Below, one piece after another: positions 26,581 through 31,035 of a stretch of DNA of 64,000 nucleotides. A program made the position numbers and the translations under genes. Positions within the stretch are counted from its first letter, which is position 1, and each line of letters starts with the position of its first letter. Below the pieces are notes generated by a model. It saw only the letters and a list, made by a program, of their open reading frames with translations, searched no databases and had not been told where the DNA came from. The stretch comes from Acidimicrobiia bacterium. Its GTDB lineage: Bacteria > Acidobacteriota > Vicinamibacteria > Vicinamibacterales > UBA2999. The stretch lies in NCBI GenBank assembly GCA_016871275.1, contig VFZG01000008.1, positions 1 to 64,000 of the forward strand. Reading direction: 5' to 3'.

Positions 26581-27147
26581 CTAGCGGAGTGGGAGCACGC
26601 CGGGGAACAGCAGGTCCACGAGTGATTGCCGCGAGCGCGTCGCCGGATCTAACCCGGTCGCCTGTTCGTAGCGCGCGATGACGGCGAGCGCATCCGGCTC
26701 CGACGCCTGCCCTACAGCCTCGAACTCGACACAGCGCACCGTGCGGCCGCCGCCCGTGGCCTCGTAGTACACGACCTCGCAGTCGGCGAAGTACCAGACT
26801 TCGAGCGCCTTCAGCAGCTCGCCGCGCCAGACGACGCCCATTCGCGCCGTGAAGGCGTCCACCTGGGCGGCCTGGTCGCCCTTGTGGTGCCCGAGGTCCA
26901 GGTTGATCTCGTCGCGTACCTCGGGGTCTGAGGCGAGCGCCTTGATCGTGAGCTGATGCAGTTCGCGATCGAAGCGGTGCCGCAGGATGTAGTGCTGCGC
27001 CTGCCCGTCGGCTGTCAGGCAGTAGCGATCGCGCACCTGCAGCACGGCCGTGCGCACCGGTCCCAATCGCGCGAGCGTCTGCCGGAAGGTGGCCATGTCG
27101 AAGCTGCCGTCGAGCACGAACTTGTGTTCGATCTCGGTGAAGTGCAT
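26581..27147 (-). CDS. CYTH-like domain protein
   Basis: N-terminal EIEHK fits the CYTH ExExK signature; internal ILRHRFDRELHQLTIKALASDPEVRDEINLDL. Confidence 0.65.
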   Translation of the reverse strand: MHFTEIEHKFVLDGSFDMATFRQTLARLGPVRTAVLQVRDRYCLTADGQAQHYILRHRFDRELHQLTIKALASDPEVRDEINLDLGHHKGDQAAQVDAFTARMGVVWRGELLKALEVWYFADCEVVYYEATGGGRTVRCVEFEAVGQASEPDALAVIARYEQATGLDPATRSRQSLVDLLFPGVLPLR

Positions 27148-28304
27148 CACATCCACCACTTGAAGCGGCCGTATTGTGCCACACGCGCCGCCACGCGCGG
27201 CGGGAGCTCGCGAAACGACTCGCGTGTCACGAGCACGTTGTGGGAATCGCGGCAGAGCTCGTCGAAGATGGCCCGGAGCGGCGCCACTGCCCGCGGGTCG
27301 CGGCTCTCGAGCATCAATTCGCCCAGCCGGTCGTGCGCCGCGTCTTCGAAGTTGTAGCTGCCGAAGGCCGCCCACGCGTCGTCGATGAGCACGATCTTCG
27401 AGTGCTCGCCGCGCCGGTGTTCGTAGATCCGCACGCCGGCCTCGAGCAGCCGAGGGTAACTGGCGGCGGCCGCGATCCACGCCAGGTCCGTGGCCGGCAG
27501 GGCATCCCGGTGCGAGTGGAACACCTCGACGAGCACGCCGCGACTGGCCGCGCGCAGCACGGCGTCGAGGAGCGGAGCGACGGGCTTGAAGTAGAAGCTC
27601 GTGATGCGGGCCGAGGTCTGGGCACCATCGAGCATCGCGATCATCCGCGTCGTGACGGCGTTGTCGCCGCACCAGCCGAAGGGCCCCATCCAATCCTGTG
27701 TCAGATTCGGGTTGCAGTACCAGTAGTCGAGTGCGAGGTCCGCCGGTGCCGGGTCGGCACGCGCCACGTCCGCCAGGGTCGCCAGATGCGCGTGCGGCAC
27801 CGTGCCGCCGAAGTCACGCAGGCTCTCGAGCAGCGTGGCCACGATCGGCCCGCGTACCGCCACGGCGTATTCGTTCCACTGCTCGAAGGACGTCTTGGTC
27901 AGGTTGCTGCTGCCAACGATGGCTTCACCGGCTTCGGACACCTGGATCTTCACGTGCTGGCCGCCGCCGAGGAGCCGCTGCACCTGGTGCGCCGGCGCGT
28001 AGACAGTGACTGTGGCGCCCTCGGCGCGCAGGTCAGTGAGCTCGCGGTTGGCGGCAGCTCGCTGAGCCGGAGACATCAGCACGCCACCTAGGCGCTGGCC
28101 GAACGCATCGACTAGCAGCGACACGGCGACGCCGCGGCGCTGCGCCCGCTGCAGCGCGGCGAGGATCTCAGTGCCGTAGGCATCGTGTTCGATATAGAAC
28201 GTCGAGAGATGAAGGAAGGCGCGTGCCTCGTTGATCATCGCCAGGCGGCGCTGCCATTCCGCTGCCCGGTTCCAGAGCGGCACGAGCGCGGACGCCTTCT
28301 GCAT
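27147..28304 (-). CDS. Phospholipase D-like domain protein
   Basis: Two HxK motifs: GGQHVKIQVSEAGEAIVGSSNLT and GEHSKIVLIDDAWAAFGSYNFED. Confidence 0.85.
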   Translation of the reverse strand: MQKASALVPLWNRAAEWQRRLAMINEARAFLHLSTFYIEHDAYGTEILAALQRAQRRGVAVSLLVDAFGQRLGGVLMSPAQRAAANRELTDLRAEGATVTVYAPAHQVQRLLGGGQHVKIQVSEAGEAIVGSSNLTKTSFEQWNEYAVAVRGPIVATLLESLRDFGGTVPHAHLATLADVARADPAPADLALDYWYCNPNLTQDWMGPFGWCGDNAVTTRMIAMLDGAQTSARITSFYFKPVAPLLDAVLRAASRGVLVEVFHSHRDALPATDLAWIAAAASYPRLLEAGVRIYEHRRGEHSKIVLIDDAWAAFGSYNFEDAAHDRLGELMLESRDPRAVAPLRAIFDELCRDSHNVLVTRESFRELPPRVAARVAQYGRFKWWM

Positions 28305-29035
28305 CAGAGCCGGTAGCCGCCCGCGACGTCGATGTTCTGGCCGGTGACGTAGTTGGCGTCGAGCAGGTAGTGAACGGCCTGGCCGATGTCGTCGAGTGTG
28401 CCCGAGCGGCCAAGAGGCACCCACCGGCTGATTTCGTCGGGCGCCGGCAGATCCACCGAGTTCTCGAGCTGCCCGGGCGACACCATGTTCACGCGGATCT
28501 GCTGCGGCGCGTACGCGGCGGCAAGCGCACGGGTGAGCACGAGCAGGCCGGTCTTGCTCACGTAGTAGTCGGTGCCGCGAGTGTTGGCGCGAATGCCTTC
28601 GAGCCCTGCCATGCCGATGTTGATGATGTGGCCGCGGGCCGGCATCAGCTTGAGCGCGCCGTAGCAGCAGTAGTAGGCGCCCGAGAGATTCGCGGCGATG
28701 GTGTCGTCCCACCCGTCGGGATCGAGAGCCGTCAGCGGTTGCGGGTTGTAGTTGCCGACGTTGTTCACGAGCAGATCCACGCGGCCTTCGGCGTTGCCGA
28801 TGTCGGCAAAGGCGGAAGCCACTGCGTGTTTGTCGGCCACGTCAACCTTTCGTGCGCGGGCGCGGCAACCGGTGGCGGCGATGGCCTGTTCGAGCGTGCG
28901 GGCCTCGTCGTCCGACGACCGGTAGAAGACGACGACGTCGTAACCGCGTGCGGCCAGTGACAGGCAGAGATGCCGGCCGAGCCGCCTGGCCCCGCCAGTG
29001 ACCACCGCGACGGGACGAGTGCTGGCGGCACTCAT
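28304..29035 (-). CDS. Short-chain dehydrogenase/reductase, pteridine-reductase-like
   Basis: VTGGARRLGRHLCLSLAARGYDVVVFYRSS (TGxxxRLGR); LLVNNVGNY; YYVSKTGLLVLTRALA catalytic YxxxK. Confidence 0.85.
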   Translation of the reverse strand: MSAASTRPVAVVTGGARRLGRHLCLSLAARGYDVVVFYRSSDDEARTLEQAIAATGCRARARKVDVADKHAVASAFADIGNAEGRVDLLVNNVGNYNPQPLTALDPDGWDDTIAANLSGAYYCCYGALKLMPARGHIINIGMAGLEGIRANTRGTDYYVSKTGLLVLTRALAAAYAPQQIRVNMVSPGQLENSVDLPAPDEISRWVPLGRSGTLDDIGQAVHYLLDANYVTGQNIDVAGGYRL

Positions 29036-29388
29036 CGGCGGCGCTCCACGCGTACGAACGAACAGTCGGCGGCCGGGACGGCGGCGGGTTTCCGCACTTC
29101 GATCCGTACGGCCGTCGCCACCGGCACCTCCGCGAGTAGTTGCCCCGCGGTGCGCTCAGCCATCGTCTCGATCAGCTGGAACCGCGAATCCTGCAACAGG
29201 CGGGTGACACCCGCGGCAATGCCGTCGTAGTCCACCGCATCCGCAATTGCGTCGGAGCCAGCAGGTGGGTCGAAGTCGTAGTCGAGCTCGATGTCCAGAT
29301 ACACGGTCTGCGCGGCAACACGCTCGTGCGGATAGATGCCGATGATGCAGTCGACTCGCAGGTTCTTCAGTCCGGTCGTGCCCGTCAT
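29032..29388 (-). CDS. Dihydroneopterin aldolase-like protein (FolB/FolX family)
   Basis: LKNLRVDCIIGIYPHERVAAQTVYLDIELDYDFDPPAGSDAIADAVDYDGIAAGV; MAERTAGQLL; VRIEVRKPAAV. Confidence 0.88.
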   Translation of the reverse strand: MTGTTGLKNLRVDCIIGIYPHERVAAQTVYLDIELDYDFDPPAGSDAIADAVDYDGIAAGVTRLLQDSRFQLIETMAERTAGQLLAEVPVATAVRIEVRKPAAVPAADCSFVRVERRR

Positions 29389-30170
29389 GTGGCCGAGTCC
29401 TTCCGTGCGATCCAGATCTGTTCCTCGGCCGTGGCGGCGAGAAACGGTGTGCCGTCGAAGGCACCGAGGCAGCCTTCCGCCTTGAAGCCGGTGTCGGCGA
29501 GCAGGGCGGCCGCCTGCGCGGGTGACATCCAGCTCAGTGACAGCGGGCGATAGCGGCGGCGCATCATCACGCCGTCGTCGTCGAGCAGGTCTTCCCAGGT
29601 GACGACGCGCATCGTCTGCGCGTGTGCGTCGATGAGGGACGTGACCCAGAGCAGCGCGTGATGTCCATCCGGCGTGTCGTACTCCGCACGCAGCTGCACA
29701 CGTCGCATCTCGTCGAGCCGCCCGGGTGTCATGAGGAAGTCGTCGAAGATGAAGCGCCCGCCCGGCCGCAGCTGCGTGTGGATGTGGCGCAGGGCATCGC
29801 GCTTGGCGTCGAGTGAGGTGAGGTGACCGATGCTGTGGTAGGGCAGCGCAATGAGCGCGGCCGGTTCTGGCAGCACGAAGCTGCGGAAGTCGCCCTGCAG
29901 AAGGGTGAGGCGGTTGGCCACACCGGCCTCGGCCGCGCGCGCCTGGCACAGAGCGAGCATCGCCGGCGACAGATCCACGCCGACGACGTGGCGGCCCCGC
30001 ACCGCCGCCTCCACCGCAATCCGCCCGTCGCCCACGCCGAGTTCCACCACCGAACCCTCGGCCGCGAGGTACGCCTGCACGTAGAAGGGAAGGTTGGTGT
30101 GGGTGGAGCCGGCAGTGGCCGTCCAGATGCTGTAGATGTCGGCGAAGCGCTCGTACTCCAATGCGTCCAT
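29385..30170 (-). CDS. Class I SAM-dependent methyltransferase
   Basis: VVELGVGDGRIAVEAAVRGRHVVGVDLSPAML motif I; LRHIHTQLRPGGRFIFDDF. Confidence 0.88.
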   Translation of the reverse strand: MDALEYERFADIYSIWTATAGSTHTNLPFYVQAYLAAEGSVVELGVGDGRIAVEAAVRGRHVVGVDLSPAMLALCQARAAEAGVANRLTLLQGDFRSFVLPEPAALIALPYHSIGHLTSLDAKRDALRHIHTQLRPGGRFIFDDFLMTPGRLDEMRRVQLRAEYDTPDGHHALLWVTSLIDAHAQTMRVVTWEDLLDDDGVMMRRRYRPLSLSWMSPAQAAALLADTGFKAEGCLGAFDGTPFLAATAEEQIWIARKDSAT

Positions 30171-30218
30171 TATCGCTATTGGACCACGTCCGTCGCCGCT
30201 TCGATTCACCACCGCGCA

Positions 30219-30680
30219 CTACGCGATACGGGCCCCGGACGTGTTCACGTAGACGGCGTGGAGCGATTGACTGGCCGTCATGAACAGGCGGTTGCGCCTG
30301 CTGCCGCCGAAGCACACGCTGGCGCAGGTTTCCGGCAGCCGGATCATGCCGATCGTCGCGCCGTCGGGGGCGATGACCTGCACGCCAGGCGCGCGCCCGC
30401 CCAGATGTTGCCCTCGACGTCACAGCGGATGCCGTCGGCCCCACTCGGCGCATTGGTGCCAGCAATGGTGAGTGTCGCCAGTGTGCGCGCGTTGCGCAGT
30501 GTGGTGCCGGTGACGTCGAACGCCTTGATGGCGCGCCTGCTGGCTGTGTCGGCCAGGTAGCGCGTCCTGTAGTCGGGCAAGAAGCAGAGCCCGTCAGGAC
30601 CGGTCACCTCGTCGGTGACCTTTGGAATCTCGCCCGAGCGGCCATCCGCCCGGTAGACCGCCATTGGGAGTTTCGAGTCG
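30219..30680 (-). pseudogene. SMP-30/gluconolactonase-like remnant, N-truncated and frameshifted
   Basis: VYRADGRSGEIPKVTDEVTGPDGLCFLPDYRTRYLADTASRRAIKAFDV...DGIRCDVEGNIWAGA in one frame; GVQVIAPDGATIGMIRLPETCASVCFGGSRRNRLFMTASQSLHAVYVNTSGARIA* in another. Confidence 0.72.
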
Positions 30681-31035
30681 GCCACGAGCGCCGCGGCTTG
30701 TAGTCGCGGACGGGGGGCGCCGTGACTACCAGGCAGCTGCTGACGGCGCCGCCGACGGCTTCGAGCAACCCGGCGGCCCAGAGCGCCCACGGCGCGGACG
30801 CTAGCGTAGCCACGCCATGGCTCGCCAACACCAATAGAAAGGGCGCGTCGAAGGCGAATAAGAACGACGACTGGCCACTGACCAACGCCTCGAGGTATGC
30901 GCTGGAACCCATTCGGGAGACCAGGAACATGAAGACCGGTGCCTTGAGCACCACCGCTTCCGCCTCCCGCACAAAGAAACTCGCGCCGTGCGACAGGGCT
31001 CATGGCGCCAATCATATGGCAGGCGAGTGCCGGGA

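Follow-up and report, generated by a model that had tools for sequence, protein, structure and literature searches.

A conserved five-gene cassette of Vicinamibacterales with a predicted role in pterin metabolism, and its CYTH protein as a candidate dihydroneopterin-triphosphate phosphohydrolase

What kind of pathway might bring together two enzymes of apparent folate or pterin type, a methyltransferase, a phospholipase D (PLD)-fold enzyme and a CYTH protein in one tightly packed row of genes? This question is raised by a locus in the genome of an Acidimicrobiia bacterium, placed by GTDB in the order Vicinamibacterales of the phylum Acidobacteriota (assembly GCA_016871275.1). The window analysed here is a stretch of 64,000 nucleotides (positions 1 to 64,000 of contig VFZG01000008.1), and the five genes lie on its minus strand at 30170-26581, in the 5'->3' order methyltransferase, FolB, short-chain dehydrogenase/reductase (SDR), PLD-fold enzyme and CYTH. 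We are slightly inclined to regard them as a self-contained, horizontally moving accessory module on a side branch of the pterin metabolism derived from GTP. A preliminary description of the sequence had reported a same-strand set with overlaps of 1-4 bp, and all five reading frames are indeed found at this place, the successive junctions overlapping by 4, 4, 1 and 1 bp (ATGA, ATGA, TGATG and TGATG). Pfam recognises four of the five proteins, the exception being CYTH, and a scan for promoters and terminators found none. The individual genes, with the evidence for their annotation, are as follows.

29385..30170, minus strand: class I S-adenosylmethionine-dependent methyltransferase (261 aa), first gene (Pfam Methyltransf_25, 1.4e-15; conserved-family alignment)
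29032..29388, minus strand: FolB-type dihydroneopterin aldolase (118 aa) (PF02152, 1.1e-29; TIGR00525; alignments)
28304..29035, minus strand: pteridine-reductase-type SDR (243 aa) (adh_short_C2, 3.6e-46; motifs TGX3RXG and YX3K; alignment)
27147..28304, minus strand: PLD-superfamily enzyme (385 aa) (PLDc_2, 1.5e-38; AlphaFold2 (AF2) model; Foldseek; alignments)
26581..27147, minus strand: CYTH/triphosphate tunnel metalloenzyme (188 aa) (AF2 model; Foldseek; alignments)

To begin with the integrity of the gene set, 60 related genomes, ranging from the genus to the order level, were searched for FolB. Full-length copies number 17, distributed over 16 of the genomes, and every one of them resides inside a cassette, with the SDR and PLD genes adjoining FolB in unchanged order in all 17 cases. 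CYTH is present in 16 of these cassettes, the remaining one (L030) lying on a contig that terminates in a rearranged duplicate, and 15 of them contain the methyltransferase. With the loci of the wider survey described below included, the methyltransferase gene is lacking beside FolB in L022, L034 and L097. The same-order set recurs altogether in about 40 further loci with unrelated flanks, mainly from Vicinamibacterales. The 4/4/1/1 spacing is common to the close relatives L019, L020 and L021, whereas elsewhere the genes keep their order but may stand as much as about 290 bp apart. Protein distance matrices correlate for all pairs of the five families (Mantel r 0.59-0.86), none of 2000 permutations giving a value as high. 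Beyond the five genes the flanks are unlike among the copies, except for an FMN-reductase-like gene found upstream in some of them. Because the order and strand of the five genes recur in the FolB-bearing relatives whose contigs are long enough, while the flanking genes differ, the set is confirmed as a conserved unit and more than a chance neighbourhood. Conservation restricted to close relatives, which would have spoken against the preliminary description, is thus not what we see, and its remark that the set has no described precedent agrees with our literature searches for this combination of genes, which gave no relevant paper.

A broader survey, in which GTDB species were scanned with the PLD alignment and the resulting 55 loci were annotated with profiles of the five families, places the full cassette mostly in Acidobacteriota, with a complete copy also in a metagenome-assembled genome (MAG) of Tanganyikabacteria. 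A near-identical group of alpha- and gammaproteobacterial MAGs has the cassette without CYTH, and a Thiodictyon MAG has it without the methyltransferase. Among the taxon labels met with in the data, Bifidobacterium and Acidimicrobiia, and with less certainty Gemmatimonadetes, are probably binning errors. In the PLD tree, the window copy groups with G035 and the first copy of G009, which belong to other genera of the family, apart from the copies of its own genus (G003, G004, G005 and G008), and the proteobacterial sequences are nested inside Acidobacteriota. Since, in addition, occurrence among the relatives is patchy, the tree and the distribution point to horizontal movement of the cassette. 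A virus- or plasmid-borne cassette was considered and, for the collections searched, rejected: a pattern scan of viral contigs revealed no relatives, and the best plasmid matches are cardiolipin-synthase-like with about 30% identity.

The most informative member of the cassette is the CYTH protein. It had been labelled as such in the preliminary description, and it matches no family in Pfam and NCBIfam at an E-value of 0.001, while a sequence-profile search of the PDB, which returned nothing, left a fold search as the way forward. An AF2 model built from 36 homologues (pLDDT 92.9) has as its best Foldseek match the triphosphate tunnel metalloenzyme of Sulfolobus (7ns9, E 3e-8), with further structural matches to thiamine triphosphatase and class IV adenylyl cyclase. 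The residues E5, E7 and K9 (the ExExK motif), R56, R58, K69, R78, E80, E141 and E143 are invariant, also in the distant homologue from the genome G287 introduced below. The label is thus upheld by the predicted structure and the motif residues, and the modelled fold is that of a triphosphate tunnel enzyme.

An independent link of this protein to pterins comes from outside the order. When 396 genomes sampled evenly across the phylum were searched, CYTH was matched in 15, in one of them weakly, and the one strong match from outside the order, that of G287, belongs to a different class. Here CYTH immediately follows a FolB gene with a C-terminal extension (L176 11841-11062), which reads as a cupin domain in our own inspection of the sequence (Pfam reports FolB alone), and a divergently oriented FolE gene stands beside them; a cassette-type SDR, PLD enzyme or methyltransferase is absent from this locus. 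A scan of the class of G287 uncovered two more CYTH-bearing genomes, G440 and G441, in which a locus syntenic with that of G287 and bounded by the same flanking genes comprises CYTH, a PTPS-family gene and FolE, in this order, with CYTH and PTPS separated by a 2-nt gap in one case and overlapping by 4 nt in the other. The PTPS proteins carry the sequence ELLHGH and no QueD cysteine, which is the ExxHGH signature of PTPS-III, an enzyme that bypasses FolB (PMC5041015). FolB is counted zero times in both G440 and G441 and exactly once (as the fusion) in G287. CYTH is therefore retained while the enzyme making 6-hydroxymethyl-dihydropterin switches between FolB and PTPS-III. Because CYTH stays beside FolE while the enzyme of the next step changes, its most likely substrate is the FolE product, 7,8-dihydroneopterin triphosphate (DHNTP), from which it would remove phosphate; genomic context makes it a candidate for this reaction. 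A DHNTP phosphohydrolase is known as FolQ (a Nudix protein) in Lactococcus and plants, and most genomes have been described as lacking a gene for it (PMC1971073). Our literature searches for a link between DHNTP and CYTH gave no relevant paper.

The FolB protein of the window scores 103.7 bits against PF02152 (cut-off 31.8) and passes the TIGR00525 FolB equivalog marginally (72.5 bits, cut-off 72.15), whereas it falls far under the cut-off of the FolX equivalog PRK11245 (50.8 versus 152 bits); its identity is 35% to FolB and 24% to FolX of Escherichia coli. The FolX part of the logic invoked in the preliminary description is consequently not supported, and the cassette protein can be classified by its sequence as FolB-type and not FolX-type, with aldolase/epimerase activity being predicted. 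E22, Y54, E74 and K100, which we take to be the FolB catalytic residues in Staphylococcus aureus numbering, are invariant in the 17 cassette FolB proteins and common to FolB and FolX of E. coli. FolB enzymes epimerise dihydroneopterin to dihydromonapterin as well (PMC1971073).

The adjacent SDR had been described as pteridine-reductase-like. The motif TGX3RXG, reported as specific to or diagnostic of pteridine reductases (PMC13259868, PMC1971073), is present in 58 of 59 cassette SDRs, the sole exception being a truncated copy, which we count against a placement among fatty-acid or sugar SDRs. The YX3K motif likewise occurs in 58 of 59. The best NCBIfam model is TmpR, a bifunctional dihydropteridine/dihydrofolate reductase (202.6 bits, cut-off 325), and the PRK09135 pteridine reductase model gives 145.9 bits (cut-off 288). 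A profile search of the PDB ranked FabG-like enzymes first and did not discriminate.

The remaining two proteins are less specific. The methyltransferase has a generic class I fold. The PLD enzyme contains two HKD-type motifs, HVKIQVSE and HSKIVLID, the first of them ending in E instead of D, and its AF2 model (pLDDT 96.5) matches 7e0m with an E-value of 3e-22; the fold search also returns phosphatidylserine synthase and PLD3/4 nucleases and does not separate lipid-acting from nucleic-acid-acting PLDs. The nearest named enzymes are cardiolipin synthases (28% identity to plasmid-borne ones over 85%), but the score is below the cut-offs of both the ClsB equivalog (91.4 versus 281 bits) and the equivalog of DrmC from the DISARM system (81.4 versus 133 bits). 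Stand-alone cassette-type PLD genes with unrelated neighbours were recorded in Spirochaetes, Planctomycetes and Proteobacteria at L079, L082, L098, L099, L101, L102, L105, L106 and L107. As for the methyltransferase gene, it is directly preceded by the aforementioned gene for an NADPH-dependent FMN reductase-like protein at L033 6210-6782 and at eight more loci like it, in cassettes of the same genus and a few others; in the window, the position immediately upstream (30216-31010, minus strand) is occupied by an apparently decayed SMP-30/gluconolactonase-like gene with a broken frame, judged from the translation only.

How these parts might work together depends on the folate and pterin background of the host and its relatives. 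FolK is found in 55 of the 60 relatives, FolE above the family cut-off in 50 and PTPS in all 60, whereas FolB is confined to the cassettes; most of the order, including the complete same-genus genome G007, therefore makes folate without FolB. G007 has neither FolB nor an ExxHGH-type PTPS and keeps FolE and FolK. Dihydrofolate reductase (PF00186, DHFR_1) is missing from G007, from the genome of the window and from nearly all relatives. One genome, G009, holds two cassette copies, the second being divergent and situated beside a divergent FolE paralogue.

Against this background, the module would start from 7,8-dihydroneopterin triphosphate made by the housekeeping FolE, encoded elsewhere in the genome. 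The CYTH protein would remove phosphates from it, giving the monophosphate or free dihydroneopterin, which FolB would cleave to 6-hydroxymethyl-dihydropterin and/or epimerise to dihydromonapterin. The SDR, using NADPH, would reduce the dihydropterin to a tetrahydropterin, the methyltransferase would methylate the pterin, and the PLD-fold enzyme may make or break a phosphodiester on it. Each of these reactions, their order and the product are what we infer, with the steps assigned to CYTH, FolB and the SDR being much better supported than those assigned to the methyltransferase and the PLD enzyme. Direct support exists for the five genes as a set conserved together, for the intact catalytic motifs and for the association of CYTH with FolE and with FolB or PTPS-III, to which the structural model adds the predicted triphosphate tunnel fold. 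By analogy with the 2'-O-methyl-monapterin of Agrobacterium, the most likely class of product is a methylated tetrahydropterin; a phosphodiester or lipid linkage introduced by the PLD enzyme is speculation. The most far-reaching version, in which a methylated tetrahydropterin bearing a phosphodiester, perhaps joined to a lipid by a transphosphatidylating PLD enzyme, would represent a novel type of cofactor or signal and CYTH a third unrelated solution of the FolQ step, we hold to be rather doubtful.

Several observations weigh against the proposed module. All six steps are predicted reactions, and the SDR stays under every curated equivalog cut-off. The correlated distances are expected also from the common ancestry of a moving block. 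Neither CYTH nor the methyltransferase is indispensable, since the alphaproteobacterial cassettes lack the former and some cassettes the latter. The PLD gene stands alone in ten loci, from Spirochaetes, Planctomycetes, Lysobacter and other taxa, and the reaction of its product may thus not be specific to pterins. Finally, PTPS-III is reported to take the triphosphate, and its pairing with a triphosphatase is thus not fully explained; a monophosphate has been proposed as the PTPS-III substrate in some archaea, which would fit the pairing (PMC5041015).

The same genes could alternatively serve folate synthesis, with CYTH and FolB supplying 6-hydroxymethyl-dihydropterin, the SDR replacing the absent dihydrofolate reductase, and the methyltransferase and PLD enzyme being passengers or repair enzymes. 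That the cassette FolB is the only one in the genome of the window would agree with this, as would the QueD motif CKYVHGH (not ExxHGH) in its only PTPS, the absence of DHFR_1, the TmpR model ranking first for the SDR, and a pteridine reductase obtained from soil that resembles one from a representative of Acidobacteria and confers trimethoprim resistance (PMC8066302). We nevertheless consider it unlikely, as 43-44 of the 60 relatives, G007 included, keep FolE and (mostly) FolK with no FolB or cassette, G009 has two copies, other SDRs scoring with TmpR exist in the genome of the window and in genomes that lack the cassette, and two conserved genes are left unexplained. In the genome of the window itself, the cassette FolB may still contribute to folate, given its single FolB and the QueD-type PTPS. 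The preliminary description had instead invoked the logic of FolX/FolM-type tetrahydromonapterin synthesis, which provides a cofactor for aromatic amino-acid hydroxylases. Its broader idea of a pterin pathway stands in so far as a pteridine-reductase-type SDR belongs to a conserved pterin unit, and a gene of the FolB/FolX superfamily indeed adjoins the TGX3RXG SDR, with the epimerase activity of FolB enzymes (PMC1971073) offering a route to dihydromonapterin. Against the FolX/FolM reading itself, the protein is FolB-type, three extra genes would go unexplained, and Biopterin_H, the hydroxylase family, is absent from the genome of the window and present in only one of the 16 cassette holders. 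We therefore find this explanation quite improbable, and in the form of FolX/FolM serving phenylalanine hydroxylase it is rejected, the client enzyme being absent from the genome.

A light-related pterin, such as the antenna chromophore of a photolyase or cryptochrome, would be in keeping with the light-associated neighbours of the second G009 copy (BLUF, FolE and photolyase), with photolyase-related genes near the alphaproteobacterial cassettes and with a folM-folE-folX operon that light induces in Pseudomonas mendocina (PMC9758184). Most cassettes have no light-related neighbours, however, and the FAD_binding_7 photolyase is absent from the genome of the window and from most holders, making a light role very unlikely and a general antenna function untenable; at most, a lineage-specific use can be envisaged. 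The second G009 copy (contig 151, L024 2368-3358 and 8322-9823) is flanked by genes for a BLUF protein, the divergent FolE, an SRPBCC-like protein and a photolyase. In G006, an SDR, a divergent FolE and BLUF form an operon-like row with no cassette (contig 47, L141 644-2564), possibly a light-controlled pterin unit. Equally far-fetched, in our opinion, is an anti-phage unit consisting of a PLD nuclease and partners making a small molecule. The patchy, discrete and horizontally moving nature of the cassette and the inclusion of nucleotide cyclases among CYTH folds would suit it, but the DrmC match is under the cut-off, no other defence gene forming a system is present, PADLOC matches none of FolB, SDR and CYTH, and CYTH accompanies folate genes at syntenic loci of another class. 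With the weak likeness of the PLD enzyme to DrmC as the only support from the parts, we rejected a defence system.

Among known systems, the proposed pterin module resembles the FolX/FolM route of E. coli and Pseudomonas (folE-folX-folM), sharing with it a FolB-superfamily enzyme and a TGX3RXG SDR acting on GTP-derived dihydropterins, but it has FolB in place of FolX, adds CYTH, the methyltransferase and the PLD enzyme, and occurs in a genome without the phenylalanine hydroxylase client. Agrobacterium tumefaciens has a PruA-dependent pterin, proposed from pterin profiling to be 2'-O-methylmonapterin (PMC13259868); an SDR pteridine reductase and a methylated tetrahydropterin (2'-O-methyl-tetrahydromonapterin, as proposed) would be common to both pathways if the cassette methyltransferase acts on a pterin, whereas the consulted part of this source describes no dedicated cassette of FolB, methyltransferase, PLD and CYTH for Agrobacterium. 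The DHNTP pyrophosphatases FolQ (Nudix) and FolQ2 (HDIG) are alike in the proposed phosphate removal and in the clustering of their genes with FolE/FolB, but the triphosphate tunnel fold of CYTH is unrelated to theirs. With the inorganic triphosphatase YgiF, thiamine triphosphatase and class IV adenylyl cyclase, CYTH has the fold, the ExExK motif and the tunnel residues in common; it differs from these in constituting a separate sequence family that Pfam does not match and in its FolB/PTPS-III/FolE context. The PLD enzyme, similarly, shares two HKD motifs with ClsB-type cardiolipin synthases and other PLD-fold enzymes, from which its score far under the ClsB cut-off, the E for D in the first motif and its conservation with pterin genes set it apart.

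Of the new elements, the CYTH family, as a candidate dihydroneopterin-triphosphate phosphohydrolase, is the strongest. The enzyme dephosphorylating DHNTP is known in few bacteria, and this candidate makes a gap in folate and pterin synthesis assayable. Recent work has connected pterins with signalling in biofilms, with redox protection and with responses to light. The cassette predicts a reduced, modified bacterial pterin, and as a transferable pathway it would offer a handle on poorly explored metabolites.

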